Positions 1 through 63,223 of a stretch of DNA of 64,000 nucleotides are shown here, piece after piece; position 1 is the first letter of the stretch, and every line of letters starts with the position of its first letter. Source of the stretch: Stentor roeselii (Eukaryota > Ciliophora > Heterotrichea > Heterotrichida > Stentoridae); NCBI GenBank assembly GCA_006503475.1, contig RSEH01000059.1:117191-181190 (forward strand), written 5' to 3'. The position numbers and the translations under genes are program-made. The notes beneath the pieces are model-generated. The model saw only the letters and a program-made list of their open reading frames with translations, searched no databases and was not told the origin of the DNA.

Positions 1-1
1 A

Positions 2-2572
2 ATCATCGGAGCTTCTCACCTGATGATAGGAAGTAAAGTTTACTTTATGTTCGGACGATCGTTATTCGGAATTTCCAACTCGATTAAAACAATAGACTTG
101 TCAGAAGAAGTTCCAAAACTAGAAGAGCTGACCCCGAACTTCATCTCACCATCAAGCAGATATCTTCACTTTAGCACAGTCATCAATCAGTACATGTATA
201 TGTTTGGAGGGGTTTATAAAAGCAGTCAAGACTCTTTAGAGTACTTTGCTGATATGTGGAGATTCGACCTTCATAGTGAAAAGTGGGAATCGGTTCTAAC
301 GATAGGGCAAACCCCTTCGAAAAGAAAGAATAGCGCATTTTGTAAACATGGAGGAACTCGAATCTTTTTATTTGGAGGCGATTTTGAAGAGAGTTATTTT
401 AATGACTTGTACTTTTTTTATACACCGCTATTGACTTGGTATAAAGTTGAACCTGAAGGTCGACAGATCAATGAAAGGACGGAGTCTTGCTTGGCTTCTT
501 TTGGAAATTACTTGTTTATTGTAGGAGGGAATAGTATTAATGGTGGGAATAGCGATATTTGGATTTATGAATTTGAAAATAATCGCTTGGATGTGTTTGT
601 TAAAAATCTTACTAGTGATGGACTCAGTTCTGTTAAATGCTGGGTTGATGAGATTGATGAGAATAAAGGGGATTTAGTTATTATTGGAGGAAATAATTAT
701 TTTGGAGTTCCAAATAGTGAAAAAATCAAGGTGTCAATAAATCTGCTTAATATTAAAAGTTTTAATATAAGCAGATATAGTTCTGGCAATTATTCCTGCA
801 GTGTTAAGAAAAATTCGGCTCTTTTAAATTTTCAGGATAAAATTATAGTGCTGGGAGGATATATTTATGAAAGTTTGATGATTTCTCCGTTGATTGTTAT
901 AGATCAAGTTACATCTAACTGTGATATTTTAGATACGAAAAATGAACTTACACTTTATGGTCATACTGCAGTTCATTATAAAAACAATATATATGTCTTT
1001 GGTGGTGGAGGATACATAGAAATTTATAAATCAAATACTAAATTTTTCAATAATATTTACAAGATGTCGTTTAATCAAACAGATTCCATAGCTTTAAACT
1101 GTAGTGCAGGTACAAAATCACCTAAATGCGACCTTTGTCCGAAAGGAACCTATTTTAAGAATGGAAAATGCGAATTATGTCCAATAGGTACCTTTAATGA
1201 TGAACTTGGATCTACAAATATTGATCAATGTATGCCATGCCCTTATGGAACATTCTCTCCTCATGAGGGATCTCGCTACTGTCTTTATTGTAATGAAGGA
1301 TATGAGTGCCCGATTGGTTCTTCAAGTCCAAGTAACAAACTGGCATCTTTGGTAAATGCAACCATCAACCCAGTCAAATATAAAAATGAAAAAGATTACT
1401 TGTCTAATCTAACAAGGTCTCTTTGGTTTGGGTTTCTGTCCTTTTTCATTTTACTTCTAGTTATTTCGATATTTTCAAAGCGAACAAGTAGACTTGTCAA
1501 AAGATTAGATATGTTTGTTAAAAGTCACGATCAACAATTGAACGTTCCTATTCAGTATTATAAAACAAACGTTGGAGGAATTTTTTCTGTTTCATTTATA
1601 ATGGCTTGTTTTGTTTCAGTGGCTTTATTATTTATGACTTTCCAGCTTGATAATATAATTGAAATCAGAGGTCTTGTCCCTGTTATTACTTTAGAGGATT
1701 CAATAAAAGCAAGTCATTTTCAAGTCAGTTTTTCTTTGCATACCTACGGAGGAGTTTGTGTAGTTGATAAAAATTGCCACCCAGACATCGAACTAAGCCT
1801 AAAGCATTTAAAATATCAAAAAATAAAAAAACAATGCATTAAATTAGCTGGAATATGCGAGGTAGTCCTAACACTAAAAGATGCTAAACTTCTTTCAAAA
1901 ATAGCTGAAATTGAATTACAAATGAAAGAAATAAGCAGTTTTGCCTCTAGTTTAAGTGTGAATCTAACCGTCTCTTCTTCTATTCCTGATCAAATCAGTA
2001 GTGTATCCTCATATATCCAAGTCCCATCGAACCACGTGGTATTTAAAGGACTAAAACCTTCAACTTTTTACTATTCTTTCACTCCATCTGTAATTTTTAC
2101 TCAGGTTTTTTCTTCAGAGTTAGACAAGTGGCCTTCAAAAGACACTGGATTTCATATTGACACTTCTAAAGATCCGGAAATTGGATCTACAGCAGATAGT
2201 CTTCAGTAAAAAATACTTAGTGTCAATATTCAACTTTTCCTTAAAGTCAAAATTGTGATTGAAGAAAGTGAAACTGCTATGGAAACTTCTAGGATTTTAA
2301 GACAAACTTGGTTGGGATTTTTAAGTACGTTACTTGGAACTATATTTGGACTTATGGGAACTTTTGCTACTGGGATGGAGTATTTTGAGAACTTTTTTAA
2401 GAGGATTCAACATAGGGCAAGGAGAAATATGAAAATTTCTAGGGTTTTATCTAGGGAAAATTTGCTGAAGAGTGAATTTCTGAAATGGAAGAATAGACCT
2501 AAAGATTCTAAAATTATTCCTCTTTCTACTCATCATCTACCATCAGAAAATAAAACAGAAACATTATATTAA
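2..2572 (+). CDS. Kelch-Cys-rich-3TM membrane protein, copy A (5' truncated by window edge)
   Basis: The reading frame is open from base 2, so the gene begins outside the window; the Met at 23 is internal because paralogs continue upstream of it. A 15-nt intron at 2206-2220 removes an in-frame stop and joins ...STADS to the C-terminal exon that starts LHVNIQLFLKV. About 851 aa are visible. They include the end of a kelch propeller (MFGGVY, FLFGGDF, IVGGN, IIGGN, VLGGY, VFGGGG), a cysteine-rich block with CPxGTF repeats, TM1 (LWFGFLSFFILLLVISIF), TM2 (GGIFSVSFIMACFVSVALLF), a conserved ectodomain ending near SSSIPDQISSV, and TM3 with a basic cytoplasmic tail. It is closest in sequence to copies C, D and E but lies on the opposite strand. 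The function is unknown; a surface adhesion or receptor role is inferred from the domains. Confidence 0.85.
2206..2220 (+). other. 15-nt intron in copy A
   Basis: GTAAAAAATACTTAG. It begins with an in-frame stop context, and removing it joins the frame to the conserved C-terminal exon. It is phase 2, the same position as intron 2 of copies B to E. Confidence 0.93.
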
Positions 2573-6058: not shown

Positions 6059-9000
6059 CTATTCATGTTCATAAGGTTCAGTAACCTTCCATTTAATTGG
6101 ACTGACTTTCGAATCCCTCTTATTCCATTCAACAGGAAAAAACTGTTCCTTAAATCCATTCCGCTTCTCAATAATCCTATTAATTTTTTCTCTTTCCTGA
6201 AGCTTATCATTAAAAACTTTCACAAATCTTTCCCAAACCTTCATAAATCCAGCGAAACTTCCCATGATTCCAAAAACTGACCCAATAATAGTTCCAAAAA
6301 AAGCGAAGACTTTTTGATTAATCATTCGATTTGTTTGCATGGCAGTTTCGCTTTCAATTATGACTATTTTCATGTTCAAAGTAGGAAAAATGTTAAGTCT
6401 AAATGATTCTTACGTGTCTTGAGTGGCCATTGAGCCAGGGATTGGATCTGAATTCATAGAAACATGGAAGCCTGTTTCTTTACTCGGCCATTCAGAGCTT
6501 TCGCTGAAAAACACCTTTTTAAATATTACGGAAGGGATGAACTTAAAGGAAAAAATTGAAGGATTTGAACCTCGAAATAGTTTTTCTTGAGAGTTTGTAT
6601 CGAAAACAGTGAAAATGTTACTTATTTGGTCTGGAATTGAGGAAGTTGAGGAGATGTTTACGCTGACAGCACTAGAGTACCCTGACAAATCAGTAATTCT
6701 AATATTGATCTCTGCTTCTTTATCTATAAGTTTAAACTGTTGAAAAGTCATAATAACATCACAATTTTGTTCCGTTTCCCTACAACTAAAAAAGAATTTT
6801 CTATAAGTAAACCCAAAATACTGATAAGACACCTTAGAACTGCAATTTCCTTCAAAGGCACATTCCCCTCCATACATATAAAAAGTAGCAGTGACATTAA
6901 CTTTATCAGCAACAACTTCCTCTTCTAATGACAACAAAGGCACAAGAGCCTTGATTTCCGACACATTATCCAAATAATACCCAATAAATCCAGAACTAAC
7001 TAAAACCCCAGCAACAACAATAAAAAGGACAGAAACAAATCCTCCAATACTTGTTTTTCTATAAACAACAGGAATTTCCAGTCCTTGCGAATGACTCTCA
7101 GAAAACAAGTCAAAACCTTTAAGCTTAATCCAAAGCATCGGAATAAAAATGACTAAAAACGCAATAAATGAAACACTCATCAAAGCCAATAACCAAATCC
7201 TTAAATTCAAATCAGAAATAAACCCTTTCATACTTTTTAACTTAAAAGGCTGTAAAGAGCTATTTTTCGGTAAACTGTAAAAATTTTTAGGAGATTTCGA
7301 ACCAATTGGACAGAAAAAGCCAGAAGGACACTCAAGACATGTTTTCGCTCCAGTCTTATTGTTGAAGAAGCCTTTTGGGCAAGGTAAGCACAATTCAGGA
7401 CTTGTGGAGTAAATCAAATTGTTGAACTTGCCTTCAGGACACTTTTGACATTTTCCATCAAATGAAAAATTTCCTTCTAAGCAAGGTTCGCAAGTTTTTT
7501 TATCAGTTCCTCCGCTGCATGCAAGTTCAAAAGAATCTTCTTTTCCAAATTTCACTAAAAGTAAATTTTTATTAAGTTTATCAGAACTTTTATAAATCTC
7601 ATTCGCGCCAATTCCACCGAAAATAAGCAGAAAGTCTTTGAAATGAACAGCAGAATGCCCGAAAAGGTCTAAAGATTTGTTGGTTTTCAACAGGTTTACC
7701 TCTGAAGTGCGTGGATTTACAATTAAAATATTTGGAAGGACTAGTTTTGAAAGAGCGGCTCCTGAAAGTCTGATTAAATAATCCCCTACCTTTAGAATTG
7801 ATGTCTCTGAGCCGAACATTGATAAAGAATGAATGTTTCCGAAAGGTTGAAAATAGTAAAAAATAGAGGTTTTCGTGAAGTAGATACTCATTATTCCCAT
7901 GTTTGGGTAACCGATATAGTTAGTACCTCCTACTATGCTGAGAACATCCATTTTTTCAAATAAGTCCACATAACAAAAGGCGTCGTTGATATCAGTAAGA
8001 GTTTGGTTCGGAACATTTTGAATTTTTGCTGAAGTTGAAGAGTATTTATTGCTTAGAAAGTCGAAAATCCAGATATCTCCAAAGCCTTTTTCACCATTTT
8101 TCCCTCCAACGATATAAAACTTGTTCTCACCCATCGTGATGCAAGAGTTCGCTCTAAACTCAGGTTTTTCCCCAGTCACTTCAAATAAAATCCACTTGAC
8201 CTGGCCTTGATGAAACATAAAAAAATCATTTTTATACCCTTCTGAGCTTTTTCCTCCAAAAATAATGAAAGTATTTCCTCCCATCAAAGTAAACGCCATG
8301 TTTTTTCTTGCTGAAGGCACATCTCCAGTGGCATAAACGAGCTTCCACTGATTCAAGGTCAAGTCGAAGGACCAAAGGTCATTAAAAAACTTTTCAGTTC
8401 CTAAAACTGCGCCGTCGCTGCCTCCAAAAATAAACATGTATTGGTTTACAATGAAACTTGCGTGATGGACTCGCCCGTTTGGAGAGATCCAGTCTTTACT
8501 TATAATGATCGGAATTGGAGATTCTAGACTAAGATCAAGAAAAACAGCAGAATTCATAGTTTTTGTGCTGTTTTTTCCATAAAAAAGATAAACTTTACTT
8601 CCAATTTTCACATCAGCTGAAAAAACTCTTCCTGCGGTTTTAACATCATTTACTAGTTTCCAGGTGAAATTTTTGAAATTATACTTAAAAATCGATTGAT
8701 GTTCAAAAGAATACTCAGGAATAATTCCATAAATAATAAACATCTCCATTTCATGCACATATGCGTAATGACTAACTCTCATTTCTGGTTTATTTCCAAA
8801 AGTTTCAACGATTTTCCAGGTGCCTTGTCGCAAGTCATACTTAAACAACTCGTCTCCAGTTTCTTTCCCGAAACTTACCTGTTGAAAAGAGTATCCAAAA
8901 ACATATAAAGATTCTTGAAAAAACACTAAAGAAGACCCCATTCTTGGAGAAGGACCATTTCCTTCAAGTTTCCGACATTCCAGGGTGTTAACATCGATGC

Positions 9001-9496
9001 TGCTTAGCCCTTACAGATAAAGTCCATTGACGTAAGTATCGCCGATGATCCCTCCGAAAATCGCAACGAAATCCCTGTCTTCATATCGAAAATAGTCGAA
9101 AGCGAAAGTCTCAACGCCGTTCAACTGGTCTCCTTTCAAAGTGTCTTTAGACCAGGTTGAACTTTCGACGTCGAATAAGAAGACTTCTGAATGTTTTCCG
9201 AAAATTATGCATTTTCGACCTTTTAGAATCATTCGATGGTTTACGAGACTTGAAGGAGAATATTCTGAGTTTATTTGAGGACTTGACCAGGCTTTTGAGG
9301 ATAAGTTGAAGATGTGAACTTCGGATGAGGCTTGATTTGATCCGAAATGATGACCTCCGATTGTGATTATGCAGTTGGTTGTAGTGTCGTATACTGCAGC
9401 TGAAGATGAACTTGCTAATGGAGGAGAACCTCCTTCTGGAATTGACTTTATTGAAAAACCTTGAAGGAGTTGAAGAATGATTAAAATTTGGATCAT
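6059..9496 (-). CDS. Kelch-Cys-rich-3TM membrane protein, copy B
   Basis: The gene has three exons, 9496-9015, 8999-6414 and 6398-6059, with 15-nt introns at 9000-9014 and 6399-6413. The product is 1,135 aa. It has an N-terminal signal peptide (MIQILIILQLLQGFS), kelch motifs (TIGGHHFG, IFGGII, FIFGGSDG, IIFGGKSS, IVGGKNG, IVGGTNY, IFGGIGA), a CxxC-rich block with CPEGKF and CPKGFF, TM1 (WLLALMSVSFIAFLVIFI), TM2 following YRKTSIGG, an ectodomain ending SSTSSIPDQISNI, TM3 and a short basic tail. It is the most divergent copy: it has a larger second exon, a shifted cysteine-block spacing, and a C-terminus ending EPYEHE. Its role is unknown, with surface receptor or adhesion inferred. Confidence 0.88.
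6399..6413 (-). other. 15-nt intron 2 of copy B
   Basis: On the minus strand it reads GTAAGAATCATTTAG. Splicing joins ATQD to TLNIFPTLNMKIVIIESETA, matching the paralogs. Phase 2. Confidence 0.93.
9000..9014 (-). other. 15-nt intron 1 of copy B
   Basis: On the minus strand it reads GTAAGGGCTAAGCAG. Splicing joins GLYL to IDVNTLECRKLEGNGPSPR, which matches the exon 1/2 junction of copies C to E. Phase 2. Confidence 0.93.
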
Positions 9497-26482: not shown

Positions 26483-26503
26483 TAAATATTAGATAATTAA
26501 AGT

Positions 26504-26580
26504 ATTAGGATAGAGAATTAATATATTAGGATAGATAATTAATATATTAGGATAGAGAATTAATATATTAGGATAGAGAG
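26504..26580. repeat. 21-bp tandem repeat, about 3.7 units
   Basis: ATTAGGATAGAGAATTAATA(T) starts at 26504, 26525, 26546 and 26567 (partial). A decayed unit precedes it at about 26488. It fills the gap between two minus-strand genes. Confidence 0.9.
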
Positions 26581-48252: not shown

Positions 48253-49584
48253 TCAAACTTTGACCAGAAGTCTTTCTCTTAGCTTATCCTGACTACTTAC
48301 ATCTCGCTGCTGGTAACTTGATGATGGTCTTCTTTTGTTAGGAACTGTTGAGATTAAAGGCTTTCGGTCTATGCTTGCTGTTGAGTTTTTCGCTTGGCTT
48401 GGAGAAAGACTTGCTCTTCTTTGGTCGAAGTTTTTTTGGGTTTTTGTTTTTACTTCGGTTAGAAGGTCGAGAACTAGTTTGTCGTTTAGGATTCTTTGTT
48501 TTTCCTCGCTTCGTAGTCGTGACTCGAGAAGGAAGAGTCTTGCTTCGGTGATTGGCATTCCTTTCAGTGATGAACTACTGTCTGGTAACCATTCTAGCTT
48601 TTCTTTTAATTGGAGAGTGTGACTGGCAATAGCTTTATGAATAGATTCAAGCGTCCAAGCCTCCATCTGATTCCTAGTTTCATTCAACTCATTTTTACTC
48701 AATTTAACCTGATCACTCAACAAATCCTGCCACTTTGCCTGTAATTCTTCTAAGTTATCCTCAACTTCTTTAATTCTAGAAAAAATCGGATTAACAACAG
48801 TTTCTGTTTTATTCACTGTTTTTTTTCGTTCAAAAGACTGAGGAGGTGGAGGTGGTTGTATCAAAGATTCAATGACAGCCTTAGTAGAATCATGATCTTT
48901 TTCAATATCTTCCATTTGCTCCTTAATCATTTTCATCCCCACTTCAAACTTCTCAATTCTTTCATTCAAAAAGCAAAAATTTTCATTTTGCTGAGAAAAC
49001 TGAAAGTTCACAATTTTAAGTTTTTCTTGAACTGATTCAAATTTTTTACTCATTTCTTCGAAATCTGAAGATTGTTGATACGACAAAGTTTGAAATTTCT
49101 TTAAAAGATTCGACTCAGCTGAGACAATTCTATCAAAAACCCTTTCAAATGATTCTTCAGATTCACTTTTTACATCAGTTTTCAGTTTTTCTAGTTTGTT
49201 AAGAATTTCACGTGTTTCTCGTTTGAGGTCTGATGAAATTGTTGATGTTTTTGATTTGAGTTCTTTTATTTTTTCTGTTATTGGGTGAAGTTTCGAGTCT
49301 GTTGATATGATGATTGAATCTGTTTTGGCTTTTAGTGTGTTTATGTCGTCTGAGATTTGTGGAAGTGAAGACTTTAAAGTTGATGTGTGCTCTTGGATTG
49401 ATGTGTCCATTCTTGAGGTTTTTACTTGAAATTTTATTGTCAGGTCTGTTAAAGATTCTTTGAGGTCTTCGATTTCAGTTGAATTTGAAGTGATTTTTTC
49501 GAGAAGAATGTTGATTGCTTGGGTTATACATTGAGGAATGTTTGTCCATCCTGATGTTGGGGGGTATTCTTCTTTAACATTCAT
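48253..49584 (-). CDS. Long coiled-coil protein, unknown
   Basis: The product is 443 aa. It starts MNVKEEYPPTSGWTNIPQCI and is almost entirely coiled coil (about 20-250 and 270-370), separated by a proline run (QPPPPPQSFERK). The C-terminus is Ser/Arg-rich and disordered. The layout resembles basal-body or cortical fibre proteins of ciliates, but no family is recognised. It converges with the small basic gene, 11 bp apart. Confidence 0.7.
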   Translation of the reverse strand: MNVKEEYPPTSGWTNIPQCITQAINILLEKITSNSTEIEDLKESLTDLTIKFQVKTSRMDTSIQEHTSTLKSSLPQISDDINTLKAKTDSIIISTDSKLHPITEKIKELKSKTSTISSDLKRETREILNKLEKLKTDVKSESEESFERVFDRIVSAESNLLKKFQTLSYQQSSDFEEMSKKFESVQEKLKIVNFQFSQQNENFCFLNERIEKFEVGMKMIKEQMEDIEKDHDSTKAVIESLIQPPPPPQSFERKKTVNKTETVVNPIFSRIKEVEDNLEELQAKWQDLLSDQVKLSKNELNETRNQMEAWTLESIHKAIASHTLQLKEKLEWLPDSSSSLKGMPITEARLFLLESRLRSEEKQRILNDKLVLDLLTEVKTKTQKNFDQRRASLSPSQAKNSTASIDRKPLISTVPNKRRPSSSYQQRDVSSQDKLRERLLVKV

Positions 49585-49668: not shown

Positions 49669-52600
49669 CTAAATTTTTTTATTGTTTTCTGTTGGAATTG
49701 TAAAAGCACTCATCGGTATTATTTTTGGATCTTTTACTCTTTTTCTCCATTTATTGAATTCACTCTTTAATGAATTTTCCTTCATCAAATAATTCGAAAT
49801 TTTAAATTTTCGTTTCTGAAATTTCTCAACTTTTTTAAAACAATTCTCAAAGAATCCCATTCCTGTTGCAAAAGTTCCCATAAGGCCGAATATTGATCCG
49901 AGTAAAGCGCTGATGAAATTGAACCAAGTTTGTTTTAAAATTCTTGAAGTTTCCATAGCAGTGTCACTTTTTTCAATGATTATTTTGACTCTAAGGAAGA
50001 GTTGAATATTGACACTAATTGTTTCTTACTGTTGACTATCTGCAGTTGAACCAATTTGAACATCTTCAGAGGTATCAATATGGAAACCTGTGGCTTTTGA
50101 AGGCCAGTTGGTTGATTCTGATGTGAAGACCTGAATAAAGACTACTGATGGAGTGAATGAATAGAAAAAGCTCGAAGGTCTAAACCCTTTTAATACTTCT
50201 TTACTTGAAGGAACCTTGAATGATTGGACAACACTGCTGATTTGGTCAGGGATTGAAGAGGATACTGAAAGATTTACACTTAAAGCAGATGCGAAACTGT
50301 TAGATTCTTTCATAAGTAACTCGATTTCTGCTTTTTTTGAAGGGATCTCAAGATTACTGAATTTTAAAACGACTTGGCAATTTCCAGTCACTTCAAAACA
50401 TTTTTTACTAACATCATCAAATTTAAGCTCTTTAAATTTTAATTCAATTTTTGGATGACAAAGTTGATTAACAACACAACTTCCTCCATAGGTGTACATC
50501 GTGAAGTTAACTTGAAATTGATTCGCTTTAATCGTGTCTTCTAAGGTAATAACAGGGACCAATCCTCTTATTTCAATGATATTATCAAATTGAAAAGCCA
50601 TGAATAAAACAATAACAGAAATACAACAACCAAAAGCAAAAGCAACAGAAAAAATTCCTCCAACTTTAGTTTTATAATATTTTATCGGAATGTTCAAGTT
50701 CTGTTCATGACTCTGAACAAAAATATCAAATCTTTTCATTAACCTTCCTGCCCTGTTCGAAATCAAAGAAACAATTAAAAATAAACTGAAAAAAGACAGA
50801 AAACCATACCAAAGTAAACTTGAAACTTCAGATAAATATTCTTTTTCATTTTTGTATTTTAATGGTTGGATTGTTTTGTTTAATAAAGACCGAAATCCTT
50901 CTTTAGGACTTGAAGAGCCTATTGGACAATCGTAACCTGAAGGACAGTCAAGGCAATAATGAGATCCTTGATTTGGGGAAAATGTTTGATGCGGGCATGG
51001 CATGCATTGATCTATGTTTGTTGAACCTTCTTGATTGTTGTAAGTTCCTTTTGGACATGGCTTGCATGTTTGGTTGTTAAAATAGGTTCCTTTGGGACAG
51101 AGATCACAATTAAGGTGTTCAGAACCTGGACTGCATTGTAGGTGAATTGGGTCGGTTTTGTTTAGGGAGACCTTGTAGATATTGTTGTAAAACTTTGAAC
51201 TTGATTTGTAGATGTCTGAATAACCTCCACCTCCGAAGACGAACAAATTTTTCTTGTAATGGACTGAAGTGTGCCCGTATAAAATCAGTTCATCGACTTC
51301 ATCTATTGTTGTACATTCCAAAGTTTCAAGGTCAGTAACAGTTAAAGATATCGACATGAATGTATCATATGTATAACCTCCCATTACTAATAACTTTCCA
51401 TCTGACATAATCACTGCTGAATTTTCTTTTATCGGACAATATTGATTAATGAGTTGCTGAAAATTTATAGTATAATTTTCAACATTTAAAGTATTTATTA
51501 AAATTTTAGTAACTTGGTATTGTGGAAGGTTGAAAAAGTTATTTCCTCCAACAATAAAAAGTACCCCTTCATTTTCATTTATTTCTTGAACCCAACATTT
51601 CGCAGCACTCAATCCATTTAGTGTAAAATTCGAAACAAAAACTTTCAATATATTCGTTTCAAGGTCATAAATCCAAATATCACTATTTCCATTATTAATA
51701 CTTTCCCCCCCAATAATAAACAGATAATTTCCAAAAGACGTCATACAAGACTGACTCCTTTCATTAATCTTTCCCCCTTCAGGATTCAATTTATACCAAA
51801 CAGAAATCGGTGTATAAAAAAAGTAAAAATCATTAAAATAACTCCCTTCAAATTCTCCTCCAAATAAAAATATTCGATTTCCACCAAATTTACAAATTGC
51901 AAAATTTTTTCTTTTCCCTGGTTTTTCACCTGTAGTTACAATTGACTCCCATTTATAAGCATCAAGGTCAAACTTCCAAAAATCAACAAAATATTCTTGT
52001 GAAATTTGACCATCTGAATCAACACCTCCATACATAAACATATATTGATTGATTACTGTGCTGAAATGAAGGATTCTGCTCAATGGTGATTCAAAGTTTT
52101 GAGTCATGAAAGAGACTTTAGGAAATTCATCTGAAAGGTCGAATGTTTGAATGGAGTTTAGAATGTTTGTGTAATTTCTTCCGTAGAGGAGAAATACCTT
52201 GCTTCCGATTTTTACACTTGCAGCGGCTGTGACTGGAGTTGATGAAAAATTGTGAATTTCTGTCCAGGTTTGAGAAATAAAGTTGAACTTATGAAGATCG
52301 CTGTATCTTATATTTTTGAATTCATTTATACCGTAAACTATGAACATTTCATTGTTTTCAATATAAGAATAATGCATTTTTCTATAAGGAGGCTCATTTG
52401 GTAGTTTTTCCATTCTTTCCCAAACTTCCAGATTCAAGTCATATTTAAAAAAAGTTCCAAGGACATCATCTGCAAAAGTAATATGTCCAAACATATACAA
52501 AGAATCATTATAAAAAACTAAAGAACAGTACCCTCTAGGAAAAGGTACATTTCCATTATTAGGCATTTTCCTCGACACCAATGAATCCACTTCAATTCTA

Positions 52601-53130
52601 AATAACTCTTACAAAAATAACTCATTTTTCGGTCCAAAAGTTGAAATCCCTCCAAAAATGGCAACAAATTTTGTATTATTGAACAAAATGTCAGTAAATC
52701 CAAAAGCTCTTAAATCTTCAACCTTATCTCCTTTTATCTCTTCACGACTCCAGGCCCAATTTTTTAAGTCAAATGAGTTGACCTCTGAGTTTGTTCCAAA
52801 AAGAAGGATTTTTTCGTCGTCTCTCAGAAACATTTGATGGAATTCGTAGGCCTGAGGCTCGTATGAGGAAAGTTTGTAAATTGGTTGAAATTCACCTTTT
52901 GTAAGACTATATGAAGAAATTCTTGGCTTTTTGTCATATGTCAGAGCATCGAAGCCGCCGATTGTGATTATTCGGTTTTGAGATGGGTCGAATACTGCTG
53001 CTGGAGATAAGAGACTTCTTGGAGGGGTCTTGCTTTTTGGGATTTTTTCTAGGTGTACTGATACGACTATTGAGAGAATAGAGGTCAATAATAGCATTTT
53101 ATTAAATGTAGAATTTGGATAATTATTCAT
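49669..53130 (-). CDS. Kelch-Cys-rich-3TM membrane protein, copy C
   Basis: The exons are 53130-52613, 52597-50030 and 50014-49669. The frame opens at Met 53130, but paralogs begin at the Met encoded at 53097 (MLLLTSILSIVVSVHLEKIP), which starts a clean signal peptide. That start gives 1,132 aa. It has kelch motifs (TIGGFDA, IFGGIST, YGGVDS, LFGGEFEGSYFND, IIGGES, IVGGNNFF, VMGGYTYD, VFGGGG), the Cys-rich CPKGTYFNNQTCKPCPKGTY block, TM1 (LWYGFLSFFSLFLIVSLI), TM2 (GGIFSVAFAFGCCISVIVLF), a second ectodomain ending SSSIPDQISSV, TM3 and a cytoplasmic tail. It is part of a head-to-tail array with D and E. Confidence 0.9.
50015..50029 (-). other. 15-nt intron 2 of copy C
   Basis: On the minus strand it reads GTAAGAAACAATTAG. 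Phase 2; it joins TADSQ to HVNIQLFLRVK. Confidence 0.93.
52598..52612 (-). other. 15-nt intron 1 of copy C
   Basis: On the minus strand it reads GTAAGAGTTATTTAG. Phase 2; it joins NELFL to IEVDSLVSRKMP. Confidence 0.93.
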
Positions 53131-55197
53131 TTGGATGAAGGATTTAAAGTTTTTTACAACTCAAACTGATTTTAAGGGTTTTTTTGTGAGTTTAGCATCT
53201 GTTGTATTTTTATTTTTTTTTTGGAGAATTTATTATTAAAGTGTTTGGGCTTGGTTAATAGAAATTTATACAGTCTCCATCGCTTATTGATAGATTTCTT
53301 CGATTTCTGCTTTTGTATTGTTAGCTAGAGCCTTTTATTTGAGATTTTTTATGGGTTTTAAAATATATGTAAAGGGTTTATCAATTTAATTTTATTAGGG
53401 TAAGAAACTAGATATTTTTGATTATATTTAAGTATTTTTCTGTTATTTCGAATTGTATTGCAAATTTCTGATTATGTTGAACCTAGGCTCAGTTTAAATC
53501 CAGATATTTTTAAAAAAGAAGATTAGTGTTTAGAGAAAAATTCTCATGATTGTATTCTTATCTGATTTAGTAGAGTACTTGATGAAAATATCAAAAGGCT
53601 TAGAGAATATCTTTTACCAAATATCTTAAAATTTTTTATTTTTTTCCATCTCGATTGTCCATAAGCTATCAGAAATTTCTTCCTCACACACAAGGGCTCT
53701 TGAAAGCCTATAATTTTCATTTGAAATGAAAATTTTGATATTTATAGATGGTAATTACACTTATATTAAAGTATTATTTATCCTGTTTTTCAGTCTTTTT
53801 AAGTAAAGTTCTATTTTAGATTGACATTTTTCTTCAAAATATATCTTCTTTCATATATATGAAGTTAATATTTGACTTAAACCGATTTGCAATCCTAAGA
53901 AAAAATATATTCAAAAAGTTTCCTACTTTCTAGTCTTATAATTTACTTATAAGGTTAAATCTTGAAATAAATTGTTAGGAAAGAAAGTTTGATTGTAAAA
54001 AGTTTAAAATCAGATTCCAAGTCATTAATGAACTAAGTTTAAATAAGGTAAAATTTATCAAGATAGAAAAGTATTCAAAGAGGAAGCCATGACTTAATCC
54101 ATATGCACACATTTCATACTATTAGGAGATATCTGTCCTTTTCTATTAAAAAAATAAAAGTGCAAAGATACATCGATCTCTAAAAGACTTTATGCTAAAA
54201 AACATCAGTCTTATGTATTTTGTAGAGCAAAACCTCAGAGGTTCTCAACTGTTCCACAAATATTCGGAAATATTGCGAAATATGTTCCAGCAGCTCATCA
54301 CTTGACCTCTAAAATCACCTGAAGTATTTATTATGAACATCACATAGTCAGCTAGATCTTTACTGAAGCAATCCTTTGGAATTCATCTTAAGTGATGGTC
54401 AAGCTAGGAATGTAGTCTTGGCATGGAATTACTCTATAATTATCGTTAAATCCCCTTTGGGAGGCGAAACCGAAATGATATTATAATCCTCATAGGGATT
54501 TTTCTTATTTTCATATTCAAATTTAAGGGCTGGATAATAATTTCGCAATTTTGAGCTTTAAGAGCTTTTTAAATTCTTTAAAGAAGTGTTTTTTCTGAAA
54601 TATCCTGATTTATTATTGAGTTTTTTATTCTTCGAATTATGAAGCATGAAAGCTGACCTTGTTAAGGAGTTTTGGACTTATTTATTTCGAAAATGCAATA
54701 TCTAAGCAAATTCGAAACAGAATGAGCAATTTTAAAGATATTGAATTTAAAGAATTAGAAAACTAATTATTTGGGAAATAGAGAATTTTATATATTTGAC
54801 TGGCTTATATGAAAATCGATAATTTTAGATATTTACTTGGTTAGTATAATATCTGAGTCTCAATCATATTTTTAATACTTTATCAATTTGATGGATAATA
54901 AATTAGTAATTTTTTAAAACGTTTAAGCTGAAAATTTCAAGATTCAACTGTTTACCGAAAAAAATTGAGAAGTGGGTGAAAATATTTTCAATTACTTAAT
55001 AACTTTATGCAGCTTTTAATAGTAATGAGAATTATTTGTACATATCTTTAATCTAGCTAAAAGAAGTTATATTTATACTAAGAATTCAGAGTAAATTATT
55101 CTTAATGATATCTTCGATTTAGGTTGCATATATCTTATATTAGAAGATTTAGTTGATTTTTAAAAGATCTAATAATAATTCTTAACTATTTCTATAC
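53131..55197. other. Long gene-free interval between copies C and D
   Basis: This 2.07 kb interval is mostly very AT-rich. The stretch at about 54060-54510 is more GC-rich than its surroundings and includes an imperfect fold around 54448-54501 (AAATCCC against GGGATTT, with TCCC/GGGA inside). A short palindromic patch lies near 53730. I see no supported gene. Confidence 0.55.
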
Positions 55198-58100
55198 CTA
55201 TCTAATTGTTTTTTGATTACAATCAGTTGGAACGCTTAAAGATGGAATCGGAATAACTTTTGTATATTTTTGGTGATTAGTTCTCCATTTATTGAATTCA
55301 CTTCTGAGTGAGATTTCTTTAATCAACAAATTCGAAATGTTAACATTTTCCTTCTGACGTTTCTCTATCTTTTTAAAGCAGCCCTCAAAAAATCCCATTC
55401 CAGTAGCAAAAGTCCCTAAAAGTCCAAAAATTGATCCAAGCATAGCACTGATAAAACTAAACCAAGTCTGTCTTAATATTCTTGAAGTTTCCATAGCAGT
55501 ATCACTTTCTTCAATCACAATTTTCACTTTAAGAAAAAGTTGAATATTGACACTAATCGTTTCTTACTGTTGACTATCAGCTGTTGATCCAATTTCAATT
55601 TCTTTTGAAGTGTCAATATGAAATCCAGTGTCTTTTGAAGGCCAGTCATTTGACTCTGAAGTAAAAACCTGTGTAAAATTTACAGATGGAGTAAATGAAT
55701 AGAAAAATGATGATGGTTTCAACCCTTTTAGCACTTCTTTATTGGAAGGGACTTTAAAAGATGATATGACACTGCTGATTTGATCAGGGATTGAAGAAGA
55801 GACTGAAAGATTTAAACTTAAAGCAGATGCAAAACTTCTTTCTTCTTTTAAGTTTAACTCGATTTCAGCTGTTTTTGAAAGTAGCTCTAAATCTTTTAAG
55901 GTTAGTAATACTTGGCAATTTCCTGCTATGTTAAAACACTTTTTGCTTATTTCTTTGTATTTCAATTGTTTCATTTCTTCGATTATTTTTGGATGGCATT
56001 TATCATCAATAGCACAACTTCCTCCATATGTATAGAGAGTTAAGTTAAGTTGAAAATGACTTGCTTTTATTGTATCTTCTAAAGTAATTACGGGTACAAG
56101 TCCTCTGATTTCAATTATGTTATCTAGTTGAAAAGTCATTAAAGAGATTATTATTGAAATGCCACAGGCTATTGCGAATGATATAGAAAAAATTCCTCCA
56201 GTTTTAGTTTTATAGTAAAAAACTGCCTTATTTAATTCATTATCATGACTTTGAACAAATATATCGAATTTTTCAATCAATCTACCTGCTGGCTTTGAAA
56301 TTAAAGAAACTATCAGGAATATAATAAAGAACGAGACGAACCCGTACCAAAGTAAACTTGAAAGGTCAGATAAATAGTTTTTTTCAATTTTATATTTTGA
56401 AGGCTGGACTGTTTTATTTACTAAAGATTTGAATCCACTCTTGGGACTTGATGAACCGACGGGACACTCAAATCCTTCAACACAATTCAGACAATATTGA
56501 GACCCTGGTTTAGGAGCAAAAGTTCCATAAGGACAAGGCATGCATTGATCAATATTTTTTGAACCTTGTTGATCATTAAAAGTTCCTTGAGGACACATAT
56601 TGCACTTTCCATTGCTTGAAAATGTTCCTTTAGGACAAAGGCTGCAATGAGAGTTTTGGGTACCTTCACTGCAGTTTAAAGATATTGGATCATGGTTTTC
56701 AAGGGAAATTTTATAAATATTGTTGTAAAACTTAGCATTCGATTTATATATTTCCAAGTAACCACCTCCTCCAAACACATAGATGTTTTTTTTGAAGTGA
56801 ACTGCAGTCTGCCCATATAATACTATTTCAGGTATCTGTGGTAAATAAGAACAATTCTGATGCACCAAATCAAACACAACTAAAGGTGAAAGCATAAAGT
56901 TATCATAAAGATACCCTCCAAAAGAAATAACTTTCTTCCCAGAACTCACAACAGCCGAATATTTTTTAACAAAACACAAAGGATCGACTGACACTGTTGA
57001 AATTTCGATGGAATGGTTCATTAAATCCATCAAATTAATCGAAACCCTAATCGTTCGATAATTCGGAACATTAAAATAATTAACTCCTCCAATAATAATC
57101 AAAACTCCTTCATTTTCATTAATCTGATCAACCCAGCATTTAACACTGCTTAATCCATCATCAGTAACATTTTTTTCCAATACCTCCAAACGATTATTCT
57201 CAAAAAGATAAACCCAAATATCGCTATTTCCACTATTCACGCTTTTCCCTCCAACAATAAACAAATAATTCCCAAAAGAAGCCAAGCAAGCCTCAGTCCT
57301 TTCATTGATCTTAAATCCTTCAGGTTCAACTTTATACCAAACAGAAAGCGGTGTATAAAAAAAGTAAAGATCATTGTAATAATTATCTTCAAATTCACCT
57401 CCAAACAAAAATATTCGATTTCCTCCATGTTTACAAATTGCACTGTTTTTTCTTTTAGAAGGACTTTGCCCTTTAGTAAGAATTGACTCCCACTTTTCAG
57501 CTTCTAAGTCGAATCTCCACATGTCCACAACTAACTCTTGAGAAGTATGACTAATGCTGTAGATCCCTCCATACATATACATGTATTGGTTTATCACTGT
57601 GCTGAAGTGTAAATATCTAGTTGAAGGTGAAATGAAGTTGGGAGTGATTATTTGAACTATTGGAATTTCTGATGATAAGTCAATTAACTGAATTGAATTT
57701 GAAATTTGTTTTAAAGTTCTGCCGTAGAGCAAATAGACTTTACTGCCTATATTTACTTGAGAAGCTCCAGTGATCGGGATGCCTTGGTAACCCTTGATTG
57801 AAGTCCAAGTAAGAGTAAGAAAGTTAAACTTGATTATTTCACTTAATTCTTCGATGACCTCTTCTCGAATTCCATAAATAATAAACATTTCATCACCCAA
57901 AACATAAGAATAATGCAATTTTCTGTATAAAGGCTTAGACCCGTTCACTATCATCTGTTCCCACGTTTCACTTCCCAAGTCATATCGATAAAAATCATTG
58001 AAAATCTCAAGCGAGTAAGAAAGATATCCATACATATATAAAGAGTCATTATAAAAAACCAACGAGCAATGACTTCGAGGACTCGGAAAGTTTCCCTTCT

Positions 58101-58638
58101 TTGGCATTTTTTTCGAGAAAAGGCTTTGAACATCGATTCTATTTAAACCTTACAAAAACAAATCATTCAAATACCCAGAATGGTCAAGTCCTCCAAAAAT
58201 CGCGACATATTCAGTGCCATTATAGATAAAGTCAGTAAACCCGTAACTTGAAAAATCTCCTAATTCATCCCCTGTCAAATTTTCTAAAGTCCACGCCCAA
58301 TTGTCCAAGTTGAAAGAATTGACCTCTGGACTCAACCCGAAGACTAGAATTTTTCGATCAGATCTTAGAAATGTTCGATGATAGTCATAAATAGGAGGCT
58401 CGTAGAAGGAAACTTTAAAAATTATCTCGAATTGGTTTGTTATCAGATTGAATGATGAAATAAGAGGCTTTCGATCATTTGTTATCGAGTCAGAACCTCC
58501 GATTGTTATGATTTTAGAGGTTATTGGGTCGTATATTGAAGATGAACTTGTTGTACTTCTGGGAGGAGTTTTGCATTTAGGGATGCTTTCTAGTGAGAGG
58601 GAAGATACTTGAAAGATAAAAAGAAGGAGAATCTGCAT
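55198..58638 (-). CDS. Kelch-Cys-rich-3TM membrane protein, copy D
   Basis: The exons are 58638-58154, 58138-55568 and 55552-55198; the product is 1,136 aa. It has a signal peptide (MQILLLFIFQVSSLSLESIP), kelch motifs (TIGGSDS, IFGGLDH, YMYGGIYS, LFGGEFEDNYYND, IVGGKSVN, IIGGVNYF, SFGGYLYD, VFGGGG), the Cys-rich block CPKGTFSSNGKCNMCPQGTF plus a third CPYGTF unit, TM1 (LWYGFVSFFIIFLIVSLIS), TM2 (GGIFSISFAIACGISIIISL), the conserved SSSIPDQISSV ectodomain, and TM3 in the third exon. It is the middle member of the C-D-E array and is most alike to E. Many NxS/T sites suggest glycosylation. The ligand is unknown. Confidence 0.92.
55553..55567 (-). other. 15-nt intron 2 of copy D
   Basis: On the minus strand it reads GTAAGAAACGATTAG. 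It differs from the introns in C and E by one base. Phase 2. Confidence 0.94.
58139..58153 (-). other. 15-nt intron 1 of copy D
   Basis: On the minus strand it reads GTAAGGTTTAAATAG. Phase 2; it joins NDLFL to IDVQSLFSKKMP. Confidence 0.94.
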
Positions 58639-59788
58639 TTTTATGGGTTTTAGGATTTATGGGAATTCTGGAGAGTTTTTGTTTATTTGAAAAATATGAA
58701 TTTTTTTATATCAATATCGGAGATTTTTTTAGGATTTTGATGAAATTGTTTTACTTAATTGGAAATACTTTGGAATATGAGTGGAAAATTTTGTTTTAGA
58801 TGTGATAGGAATCTATGTATTAATTTATAGTAATCTATAAGTAAATTTTTAGGAATCGATCAAATTGCACTTCGAGAATTTTAGGTAACTTATGGAATTG
58901 CTTTATACTTAGAATTCAGTCGATTTTAGAGAATTATTGTATAATTAATCAAGAATTTTCTATGGGAGAAAATATAATATAGGTAAATTATAGAATTTTT
59001 GTATGAATTATAGGAATTCTAGCAATAGCTTTTAGATATATTCGCTTTTATTTTATCAAATTAAGCTAGGTTGTGTTTAAGGTTTTGAATATCAATCTAT
59101 ATAATGACTCTGAGAAACTTTGTAGAATTTAACTTAAAGAACTTTTCTATGAATTTTTATTAGATTTCTTAATGTTTTATTCGATTCTGCATTTAGTTAG
59201 ATTTTCTTTATATATGTCTAAGGTTTTGTATAATTTACCCTTTTATACCTTATTACTAAACATATTTTATTATATATGCCCTTAAAATTCAAAAAAAGAA
59301 TAGTCTATATGTTTTAAAAATATGAAAAATATTAGGTTTTTTTCTCTATGTTTTTGATTTAGTTTCGAATTTCACCAAAAATCTTGATTGAACATTAATA
59401 ATGCATACCTAAAAAAAAAAATCATAATGAACTTTGGAGATTTATTTTTATTATAAATCCAAAACACTAAGAGTGATAATATGACGAACTACTGAAGTAG
59501 GGTTACCTTTATTAAAGAAAATGAAAATATCAGCTTTTTCATATAAAATAAGCCTAAATTAAATGTTGATATAAATATTACTCCAAGTACAATTATACTT
59601 CTATGTAAAGTTAGGCGATCATGTTTATTTTTTAACATTAACCACTTTCTAGTGATTCCTTGATTTAATTTACTTTTTGTAATTAATTAGCACTCAATAC
59701 CCTCAATTTTAGACATTTTATCATGAAATTACAAGTTTTAAACATAATCTCAATCATAATTACTAATACTAAACTATTTCACTAAATC
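58639..59788. other. Gene-free AT-rich interval between copies D and E
   Basis: This 1.15 kb interval consists of AT-rich sequence with no supported gene or clear repeat. It must hold the copy D promoter and the copy E 3' end. Confidence 0.6.
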
Positions 59789-62700
59789 TTAATGATATAA
59801 TTTTGGATTTGATTCAGTTGGAATACTCAATGAAGTAACAGGAATAACTTTTCGATCTTTGGGTTTACTTTTCCATTTATTGAATTGACTTCGTAATGAT
59901 GAATTTTTAATCAAATAATTTGAAATATTTGTTCTTTGCTTCTGACGATTGTCGATTTTTTTAAAGCAGCTTTCGAAATATCCCATCCCAGTAGCAAAAG
60001 TTCCCAAAAGTCCAAATATTGATCCAAGCAAGGCACTGATAAAACTGAACCAAGTTTGTCTTAAGATTCTTGAAGTTTCCATTGCGGTATCACTTTCTTC
60101 AATCACTATTTTCACTTTAAGGAAAAGTTGAATATTAACACTAATTGTTTCTTACTGTTGACTGTCAGCTGTTGATCCGATCTCTATATCCTTAGAGGTA
60201 TCAATATGAAATCCAGTGTCTTTCGAAGGCCACTTGTTTGACTCTGAAGTAAAAACCTGAATAAAATTTACAGATGGAGTGAATGAATAGTAAAACAATG
60301 AAGGTTTCAGTCCTTTTAATACTTCAGTATTAGTAGGAACTTTAAAGGATGACACAACACTGCTGATTTGATCAGGGATTGAAGAAGAGACCGAAAGATT
60401 GACACTTAAAGCAGATGCAAAACTGTTTGGTTCTTTCATTTGTAACTCAATTTCAGCGATTTTTGTAATAAGTTCAAATCCTTTCAATGTTAACAATACT
60501 TGACAATTTCCACTGAAATTTAAACACTTTATTGTTTTATCCCTATACTTAAGGCCATCCAAGTAAAGCTCGATTTTAGGATGGCATTTTTCATCAACAA
60601 TGCAACTTCCTCCATAAGTAAAAAGTGTAAAGTTAGCTTGAAAATAGTTTGCATTAATTTTATCTTCTAGTGTAATCACTGGAACCAATCCTCTGATTTC
60701 AATAATATTATCAAAATTAAATGCCATAAAAGAAACCACTACTGAAATGCAACAGGCAATTATAAATGATATCGAAAAAATTCCTCCGATTTTAGTCTTA
60801 TAATAATATATAGGTTTATTCAACTCACTTTCATGATTTTGAACGAATAAATCAAATCTTTGAACTAAATTTCCTGTCTTGGCTGAAACTAGTGAAATAA
60901 AAAGGAAAACAATGAAGAAAGAAATAAATCCATACCAAAGTGAACTTGATAAATTAGATAGGTAATATTTTTCATCTTTATATTTATAGGGCTGGACCGT
61001 TTCATTAAATAATGACTTGAATCCTTCTTTTACGTTTGAAGAACCTATTCTGCACTCACTACCTTCAAAACAATCAATACAATAATAGGATCCTTCGCTT
61101 GGAGAAAAAGTCCCATAAGGACAAGGAATGCATTGATCAATATTTGTTGAACCAAGTTGATCATTATAGGTGCCTCTTGGGCACATTGCGCAAGTTCCAT
61201 TGTTGAAATAAGTTCCTTTGAGACATAGGTTGCAATTAGGGCTATAGGTACCTGGACTACAGTTTAAATGAATTGGATCTGTTTCTGTTAATGAAATCTT
61301 GTATATATTATTATATAATCTTATTTTTGATTTATAAATCTCTGAGTAGCCTCCTCCTCCAAAAACAAAAATATTTTTCTTGAAGTGGACTGCAGTTAGT
61401 CCATGTAAAATAAGTTCATGCTCTGTTGGAAAATAAGAGCAATTTTGATTTACCATATCAACAACCAGCATATTATAAAGCATAAAAGTATCATACAAAT
61501 ATCCTCCTATCGCAACTATTTTATCTCCTGAAACAACAACAGACGAGTATTGTTTAACAACACAAAAAGGATCATTATAAGTCTTAAAACTTACTATGTT
61601 ACTTTGTAAATTTAAAAGATTGATTGAAACTCTAAATATCTTATAATTCGGCACATTAAAAAAATTAGTACCTCCAGCAATAACTAAAGTTCCTTCATTT
61701 TCATTAATTTCTTCAACCCAACATTTCACCCCACAGAGTCCATCATAAGTAAAATTTTTTTGAAAAATTTCTAATCTATTCGTTTCAAGTTTATATATCC
61801 AAACATCTTTATTTGCACTATTAATGCTTTTTCCTCCAACAATAAACAAGTAATTCCCAAAAGAAGCCAAGCAAGCCTGAGTCCTTTCGTTGATTTTCGA
61901 ACCTTCAGGCTCAACTTGATACCAAACAGAAAGCGGTGTATAAAAAAAGTAAAGATCATTATAATAATTATCTTCATATTCACCTCCAAATAAAAAAATC
62001 CGATTTCCTCCATGTTTGCAAAAAGCGCTGTTTTTTCTTGGTGAAGGATTTTGACCACTTGTGATAATTGACTCCCACTTCTTGACTTCCAAATCAAATC
62101 TCCACAAATCTGTTAAATATTCTAAAGAGTTTTCACCGTCATCATAAACTCCTCCATACATGTACATGTAATGGTTTATGACTGTGCTGAAGTGAAGAAT
62201 TCTGCTTGATGGAGAAGGGAAGTGAGGAGTGACTTCTTCAACTAATGGAATATCTTGAGATAAATCAATTGACTGAATTGAATTCGAAATTTCATATTTA
62301 GTCCTTCCATAAAGTAAATAAATTTTTTCACCTATTTTCACTTCAGAGGCAGCAGCAATAGGGACTCCACGAAACTCTTTAATTTGAATCCAGGTATTCG
62401 TTAAAAAGTTGAATTTAAAAATTTCATCAGAAATTTCAAAATATTCCTCAAAAACTCCATAAATAACAAACATTTCATCTTTAACAACATAAGAAAAATG
62501 AAATTTCCTAGGTCTAGGTTGATCTCCATCTGCATTAATTTTTTCCCATTTCATACTGATCAAGTCATACCTATAAAAATCATTCAAATATTCATTTGAA
62601 AAAGAGATATACCCATACATATACAAAGAGTCATTATAAAAGACTAAACTGCACTGAGATCGAGGACTAGGAACCTTTCCATCCTTCGGCATTTTCTTCG

Positions 62701-63223
62701 AGTGAAGGTTGTTAACATCAATCCTATTTATCCCTTACAAGAACAAGTCATTAGAATATCCATAAAATGAATGTCCTCCAAACATTGCAATATATTCAGT
62801 TTCATTAAAAATGAAATCTGTGTACCCGAAAGATGAAGTGTCTTGCAACTCATCACCTGTTAAAAGTTCTAATTTCCATCCTCTTGTTTCAAGGTTAAAT
62901 GAATTCACCTCTGGAGTGAAGCCAAAAAGAATGATTTTACGGTCTGACCTTAGATACATTCGATGAGCGCTGTATGTTAAAGGCTCGTAAGAGGAAACTT
63001 TGAAGATTTTTTCGAATTGTTTTGTTTTTAAGTCAAATGATGAGATTTTTGGTTTTCGATCTCCGGTTATGGAATCAGCTCCTCCGATTGTGATGATCTT
63101 TGAGGTCACTGGGTCGAATATTGAAGAAGAAGTTGTTGTACTTTTTGGGGGAGTCTTACATTCTGGGATTCTTTCTAAGGATAGGGAGGATGCGTGAGAA
63201 AGAAGAAGGAAAAGGATATGCAT
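59789..63223 (-). CDS. Kelch-Cys-rich-3TM membrane protein, copy E
   Basis: The exons are 63223-62739, 62723-60156 and 60140-59789; the product is 1,134 aa. It has a signal peptide (MHILFLLLSHASSLSLERIP), a kelch propeller to about residue 640 (TIGGADS, MFGGHSF, YGGVYDDG, LFGGEYEDNYYND, IVGGKSIN, IAGGTNFF, AIGGYLYD, VFGGGG), and a Cys-rich ephrin-receptor/TNFR-like block at about 650-720. TM1 is at about 756-776, TM2 at about 808-830 (GGIFSISFIIACCISVVVSF), a second ectodomain spans about 835-1040, TM3 about 1045-1070, and the cytoplasmic tail about 60 residues. The N-terminus should be outside, giving an even split of two ectodomains around a short TM1-TM2 loop. The role is inferred as a surface receptor or adhesion protein. 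Confidence 0.92.
60141..60155 (-). other. 15-nt intron 2 of copy E
   Basis: On the minus strand it reads GTAAGAAACAATTAG, identical to intron 2 of copy C. Phase 2. Confidence 0.94.
62724..62738 (-). other. 15-nt intron 1 of copy E
   Basis: On the minus strand it reads GTAAGGGATAAATAG. Phase 2; it joins NDLFL to IDVNNLHSKKMP. Confidence 0.94.

Follow-up and report, generated by a model that had tools for sequence, protein, structure and literature searches.

Gene organisation of the window

The window analysed here, a stretch of 64,000 nucleotides (nt) of the ciliate Stentor roeselii (assembly GCA_006503475.1, contig RSEH01000059.1, positions 117,191 to 181,190 of the forward strand), carries five related genes, copies A to E, whose predicted proteins combine a kelch and cysteine-rich head with three transmembrane (TM) helices. 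The part from TM2 to TM3, referred to as the module, is likely a very divergent relative of the Erv41/Erv46 (ERGIC) type. An earlier reading made from the letters of the window (the sequence-only reading) had placed all five copies at 49669-63223; copies C, D and E lie inside this range as complete genes on the minus strand, and copies A and B lie outside it (Table 1). The unusual layout described in that reading proved to be real, and the order of kelch region, Cys-rich block, TM1, short loop, TM2, ectodomain of about 205 residues, TM3 and tail was common to all 45 aligned copies, which were the five of the window, with A only from mid-kelch on, and 40 others from the genome. The two-helix topology with a large ectodomain proposed for the TM2/TM3 module was likewise supported. 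The motif SSSIPDQISSV, taken earlier as the end of the module, was misplaced there since SSSIPDQ forms residues 941-947 of copy E, in the middle of the ectodomain.

Table 1. Positions of copies A to E and of the parts of copy E in the window
Feature	Position	Strand	Details
Copy A	1..2572	plus	5' part cut by the left edge of the window; introns 2090..2104, 2206..2220
Copy B	6059..9496	minus	more distant paralogue, module 38-40% against other copies; introns 9014..9000, 6529..6515, 6413..6399
Copy C	49669..53130	minus	complete gene, 1138 residues; introns 52612..52598, 50145..50131, 50029..50015
Copy D	55198..58638	minus	complete gene, 1131 residues; introns 58153..58139, 55683..55669, 55567..55553
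Copy E	59789..63223	minus	complete gene, 1129 residues after splicing of three 15-nt introns (62738..62724, 60271..60257, 60155..60141)
Copy E, kelch region	61289..63163	minus	holds intron 1; Pfam kelch models, best E 2.4e-77; anchor listing
Copy E, Cys-rich block	61022..61264	minus	Ephrin_rec_like / GCC2-GCC3 type; PF07699 E 1e-07; Cys columns conserved in 45 copies
Copy E, TM1	60881..60946	minus	lowest conservation among the helices (0.18 mean column identity)
Copy E, cytosolic segment DxF..H..KTKIGG and TM2	60713..60880	minus	ERGIC_N-like start of the module; ERGIC_N in 16/24 members; profile comparison
Copy E, second ectodomain	60068..60712	minus	205 residues (833-1037); encloses the last two introns
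Copy E, ectodomain Cys 869 and Cys 902	60602-60604 and 60503-60505	minus	near-invariant in the 45-copy alignment
Copy E, TM3	59972..60055	minus	most conserved segment (0.42); GxxxG and invariant E at the cytosolic end
Hidden open-frame intron (predicted)	60271-60257 (E), 55683-55669 (D), 50145-50131 (C), 6529-6515 (B), 2090-2104 (A)		15 nt

Genetic code and introns

The standard code was assigned because all three standard stops end genes of the family (17 TAG, 16 TAA and 7 TGA in the 40 further copies) and because the in-frame stops of copies C, D and E all fall within 15-nt GT..AG stretches. Two of these introns per gene break the frame in C, D and E. A third 15-nt GT..AG intron that stays open in frame (VNFIQ in copy E) is predicted. 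Exactly those five residues are missing from paralogues without the third intron, which revealed the hidden intron in the window copies, and every in-frame intron candidate was examined in C, D and E. On this prediction each protein loses five residues relative to the plain reading. A plain open reading frame translation would thus add five false residues, and automatic annotation of the genome may miss introns of this open-frame kind.

The 40 further copies were hand-picked for spread from a 103-match search of the genome and then spliced. A total of 60 introns were called in them, 59 of 15 nt and one of 16 nt, with a caller restricted to GT..AG stretches of 15-17 nt, so that the length is partly built in. 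An A at position 10, which was no criterion of the caller, was present in all 59 introns of 15 nt. For Stentor coeruleus, the standard code, introns of 15-16 nt and a branch-point A mostly at position 10 are described in the part of the published account available (PMC9505925).

Immediately downstream of copy C, in the same orientation, lies a frame rich in coiled-coil-like sequence (48253-49584, minus strand). A code with TAA and TAG read as Gln would falsely merge this frame and copy C into one frame of 1625 residues.

Family size, conservation and selection

In the 44.4 Mb of the genome, the TM1-to-tail region of copy E gave the 103 matches mentioned above. At E ≤ 1 the module of the intronless copy L029 gave 128 matches, representing 117 loci on 69 contigs, and both match and locus counts are lower bounds with some of the 117 loci being fragments. 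A span of at least 233 codons was reached by 106 of the 128 matches, 93 of which lie within frames of at least 900 codons. The tandem nature of the family claimed earlier was supported. Of the 117 loci, 56 have a family neighbour at most 8 kb away. All 40 further copies produced spliced proteins of 1094-1179 residues.

The hydropathy threshold was passed by TM1 and TM2 in 45/45 copies and by TM3 in 42/45. TM3 of copy C, L010 and L011 fell below the threshold; its sequence was conserved nonetheless. Mean column identity over the 45 copies was 0.27 for the kelch region, 0.38 for the Cys-rich block, 0.18 for TM1, 0.29 for the loop, 0.36 for TM2, 0.34 for the ectodomain, 0.42 for TM3 and 0.15 for the tail. 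With TM2, ectodomain and TM3 more conserved than kelch or TM1, the part from TM2 to TM3 looks like one functional unit and TM1 appears akin to a plain linker. Residues kept in at least 41 of the 45 copies were the Cys of the Cys-rich block, D786, H792, N834, E837, the ectodomain Cys pair (43/45 and 44/45), TGxH, R1042, GxxxG, M1070 and E1074, where the numbering has the hidden intron still in.

Pairwise ratios of nonsynonymous to synonymous substitution rates (dN/dS) were 0.03-0.48 over all regions for copies A, C, D and E, which indicates purifying selection and excludes chance. Diversifying selection in the propeller was not seen at this coarse scale, with dN/dS of 0.18-0.24 for the same four copies.

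A divergent subgroup comprised L047, L048 and the clusters on contigs C281 and C207. In the module L047 and L048 were 23% and 18% identical to L025, respectively; the threonine of KTxIGG was absent from them and no intron was called. Frames of the C281/C207 clusters were mostly of 1130-1200 residues. Pattern searches of viral and prokaryote collections gave 5 and 30 matches with no relative among them. No published account of the family was found in the open-access literature, which is not proof of absence.

The kelch and Cys-rich head

The kelch and Cys-rich assignments of the sequence-only reading were upheld by Pfam. Kelch models above cut-off were PF24681 (E 2.4e-77), PF24981, PF13418, PF13964, PF01344, PF13415 and PF07646, while the kelch-type models PF13854, PF24996 and PF25210 matched below their own cut-offs. 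The Pfam family Beta-prop_ATRN-LZTR1 matched the kelch region (E 1.8e-49). Hand-picked anchors spaced 48-56 residues apart gave approximately 12 blades in copy E, whose kelch region would thus probably form two six-bladed propellers. The Cys-rich block was matched by PF07699 with 32.1 bits against a cut-off of 23.1 (E 1e-07).

Kelch propeller, Cys-rich stalk and one TM helix are also the layout of Attractin/MEGF8-type receptors, which unlike the present family are not known to have a second membrane module. Apicomplexan and Tetrahymena CRMPs (PMC9815656, PMC9670195) are similar in having a large, receptor-like ectodomain that contains Cys-rich repeats of ephrin-receptor-like type. Compared by description, in the available portions of these two sources, CRMPs differ by nine TM helices (reported for Toxoplasma, PMC9815656) against three here and by having no kelch described. 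Assignment of the family to the CRMPs was rejected on the number of TM helices, notwithstanding the similar style of the ectodomain.

Probable relationship of the TM2-TM3 module to Erv41/Erv46

Profile searches of the TM2-TM3 region led to ERGIC_N. At E ≤ 1, ERGIC_N matched 16 of 24 modules (best E 4.3e-4, none shown above the curated cut-off) and no other Pfam family matched two or more; 20 other families were each matched by a single member. The module of copy B had ERGIC_N as its sole Pfam match (E 0.11), positioned at the KTSIGG motif. The ERGIC_N model searched over the whole genome up to E 10 gave 14 matches, comprising five true Erv genes and nine matches at E 0.01-0.32, and all nine lay inside places of the family at the TM2 end.

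Profile-profile comparison of the module with the five Erv proteins of the genome gave an E value of 8.5e-4. The 45-member profile gave E 0.0037 in local and 0.00097 in global mode; with reversed Erv sequences the values were 0.15 and 0.55. In shuffle controls, in which columns were permuted inside segments, the local score was 34.4 for the 24-member profile (top of 100 shuffles 24.2) and 29.9 for the 45-member profile (top of 100 shuffles 22.4). The global full-length score of the 24-member profile was 20.7 with 13.7 as the top of 100 shuffles, and the C-terminal part alone scored 21.6 in local mode with 20.1 as the top of 150. Residues of the hidden intron were left in these profiles for copies E and B (A1) and for copy B (45-member). 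When single Erv proteins were compared with the family profile, their scores were reached by 4, 0, 1, 2 and 1 of 150 shuffles. Against the Erv profile, 37 of the 45 modules (median 21.0, minimum 15.0) outscored the best control frame (17.8); the controls were a small set of 11 frames running from ATG to stop and containing two or more hydrophobic stretches, 62 of 73 having been dropped for BLAST matches to the family or to Erv.

The alignments placed the T of KTxxGG and a G of TM3 on their Erv counterparts in 5/5 local settings (low threshold, each Erv as master). The second ectodomain Cys fell on an Erv Cys in 5/5 and the first in 3/5 of these settings. The settings share their five Erv sequences and do not count as independent. 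In its alignment to the Erv profile, yeast Erv41 has both Cys.

The tails of Erv41/Erv46 proteins are cytosolic. In build, Erv41/Erv46 (ERGIC1-3; PF13850 and PF07970) resemble the family in a short cytosolic start with D..T..GG followed by a TM helix, a luminal domain, predicted to be beta-rich in the family, with a possibly corresponding pair of conserved Cys, a second TM helix with GG/GxxG and a short cytosolic tail. They differ from it in that the family has the kelch and Cys-rich head with TM1 in front and no KKxx signal, in the spacing of the helices (213 residues from hydropathy peak to hydropathy peak in copy E and 231-261 in the genome's five Erv proteins) and in number, with about 117 family loci against five Erv genes. 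Two TM helices with short tails at both ends are given for Erv41/46 proteins in the available text of PMC4729789.

The evidence for Erv kinship, which was drawn from sequence comparison, is moderate to good and short of proof, and a number of results weigh against it. Outside the true Erv genes, the best ERGIC_N match in the genome scored 21.2 bits, below the cut-off of 27. COPIIcoated_ERV (PF07970) was absent among the families matched by the 24 members at E ≤ 1, and its genome search produced five matches, all of them true Erv genes. The module of copy E had no Pfam match at E ≤ 1. The hhalign probabilities were low (27% at most), and since paralogues are non-independent, the counts of 16/24 and 9/9 equal few events. 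The global score of the 45-member profile was reached by 3 of 100 shuffles and that of the C-terminal part in global mode by 1 of 150. Global alignment was sensible for one of five master sequences and for none of five with Cys masked. With Cys masked in local mode, T and G corresponded in 5/5 settings, the second Cys in 3/5 and the first in 0/5, being off by two in all five. A control region of TM1 including the loop start scored 18.0, slightly over the 17.8 of the best control frame. Erv41 (3zlc) was not in the best 50 of 748 and the best 50 of 452 Foldseek rows obtained with two poor structure models.

A C-terminal KKxx retrieval signal of Erv46 type was present in 0/45 copies, with K at -3 in 2/45. 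It follows from the unmatched curated Erv domains and the lack of this signal that the family is not filed as a member of Erv41/Erv46. The same low scores would suit a module that is new of its own, its likeness to ERGIC_N arising by convergence of a cytosolic motif with a hydrophobic helix, as would the COPIIcoated_ERV count of 0/24 and the low hhalign probability. Convergence is considered unlikely, however, in view of the C-terminal part, which exceeded its shuffles alone and in line with the N-terminal part, and of the T and G positions, which corresponded even with Cys masked. Overall, the family is likely a divergent Erv relative that may be Erv-like in assembly and export.

Five Erv41/Erv46-like genes were identified in the genome, on contigs C178, C167, C22, C145 and C114 (L049-L053). 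Those on C167 and C22 had the CGSC and CCN(S/T)C motifs of Erv46 type.

Structure models and channel-type folds

Two AlphaFold predictions were made on window modules (five rows), with two introns left unspliced. The mean predicted local distance difference test (pLDDT) values were 50.5 and 53.8, and 149 of 306 and 141 of 307 residues were below 50. Both models had TM2 and, after it, an ectodomain whose first half was rich in beta structure (up to 86 in ten-residue blocks) and whose second half lacked resolved structure, followed by a strand leading into TM3. At pLDDT this low the models cannot decide the fold, and the proton-activated chloride channel PAC/TMEM206, which has two TM helices around a beta-rich ectodomain as these models do, is therefore kept as a rival.

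In a Foldseek search of the PDB with the copy E model, PAC/ASOR/TMEM206 entries took every one of ranks 1-16 (lowest E 7.8e-4, highest probability 0.89). With the copy-B-first model, the top probability (0.77) went to PAC, as did 13 of the best 50 of 452 rows (best E 5.4e-3), but rank 1 was an unrelated viral envelope protein. The family profile paired TM3 with TM2 of PAC over 28 columns, and TM3 is the most constrained segment of the family. A trimeric two-helix channel of the PAC/TMEM206 kind gated by the kelch head would fit these results, yet it is regarded as improbable. The TM-score of the PAC rows was 0.28 at most and came from low-pLDDT models with two unspliced introns, and sequence support for PAC was absent from the comparisons made. 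PAC against the family profile gave P 0.096, the score of human PAC was reached by 21 of 150 shuffles, and in an initial set of 60 shuffles the maximum was 19.7 against 18.3 for PAC. TMEM206 (PF15122) had no genome match, though this model matched no control genome either. In addition, the pore residue of PAC, Lys319 according to the available text of PMC11059273, aligned with a Leu of copy E.

The likeness to P2X or DEG/ENaC channels suggested by the sequence-only reading had no support in sequence, and Erv41/Erv46 (ERGIC), of the same topology, is a better-supported relative of the module that this reading did not recognise. The channel likeness agrees in topology, and P2X7 appeared at ranks 42 and 45 of the fold search with the copy E model. 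P2X_receptor (PF00864) had three matches in the genome at E ≤ 10, each a true P2X gene and none of them in the family, and ASC (PF00858) had no genome match up to E 10. The score of a native P2X protein against the family profile was reached by 10 of 80 of its own shuffles. A P2X or DEG/ENaC-type channel is accordingly held to be very improbable, and the probable Erv relationship, which is amenable to localisation, replaces the speculative channel assignment.

The three P2X receptor genes of the genome lie on contigs C365, C33 and C69 (E 2e-44 to 2.4e-40). PDB sequence searches gave one match for the copy E module (E 1.6) and two for the 24-member profile (E 0.12 and 0.13), all of which were rejected as chance.

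Proposed architecture and function

The explanation that we consider probable, on balance, is a type I kelch head fused ahead of a divergent Erv41/Erv46-type module in a large receptor-like family of a heterotrich-type ciliate. It builds on gene structure, family size, conservation and a statistical kinship of the module with Erv, all shown by the analysis, and proposes the topology, the oligomer, the location, ligand binding and any signalling. The head would comprise signal peptide, kelch propellers, Cys-rich stalk and TM1, and the module the cytosolic DxF..KTxxGG segment, TM2, the beta-rich ectodomain with its Cys pair, TM3 and a cytosolic tail. The short tail of the type I receptor would have become the cytosolic loop, with TM1 returning the chain to the cytosol and the orientation of the Erv module preserved. 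A fusion with TM1 turning the chain back would account for the three helices, the variability of TM1 and the presence of DxF..KTxxGG in the loop. Most likely, the propellers would engage an extracellular ligand or partner, or one in a secretory lumen, and the Erv-type module would keep the protein in oligomers and steer its passage through the secretory pathway.

The absence of KKxx from all 45 copies argues for passage beyond the Golgi, and a post-Golgi role as surface receptor is favoured over cycling between endoplasmic reticulum (ER) and Golgi. Dedicated ER-Golgi cargo receptors, in which the kelch heads would select differing secretory cargoes for cycling by the Erv module in the manner of Erv41/Erv46, would be in keeping with the Erv kinship itself, and PDI-C is a precedent for rearrangement of an Erv module (PMC4729789, in the part available). 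Such a role nevertheless appears rather unlikely, as approximately 117 loci are many for cargo receptors, K at -3 was limited to two of the 45 C-termini, and the head seems to resemble the build of a cell-surface receptor.

PDI-C of plants and other lineages, which has a thioredoxin domain between two Erv parts and is described as absent from alveolates in the available text of the same source, resembles the family in joining an Erv41/46 module to a foreign domain. It differs in that the insert lies between the Erv parts, against a whole receptor at the N-terminus here. According to that portion of the 2015 study, which treated plant, yeast and human Erv41/Erv46 homologues, domain rearrangements contributed little, with PDI-C as one notable exception (PMC4729789).

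Extending the proposed fusion, a cargo receptor may have been captured as the base of more than 100 kelch-headed surface receptors, in a second rearrangement of Erv41/46 after PDI-C. These could serve in mating or in the recognition of prey or of self and non-self, and paralogues might pair via the Erv module to form combinatorial receptors; this extension is tentative and, taken as a whole, doubtful. If about a hundred loci do carry an Erv-type module under a kelch head, a trafficking receptor would be able to turn into the membrane base for a whole repertoire of receptors, and heterotrich ciliates would gain a large candidate set of recognition proteins.

Neighbouring genes and other features

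In the window, a RING-finger protein gene (9763-10602, minus strand; PF13920, E 1.3e-07) adjoins copy B. An OSCA/TMEM63-type (PHM7/RSN1) membrane protein gene was identified at 34587-37031 on the plus strand (PF14703, E 1.5e-08; PF02714 just under cut-off). At 26490-26584, a 21-base unit is repeated in tandem in 4.5 copies. Outside the window, a cyclic-nucleotide-gated-type ion channel gene lies beside one of the Erv genes (L052:6-1373, minus strand; Ion_trans E 3.7e-14, cNMP_binding E 1.6e-06).

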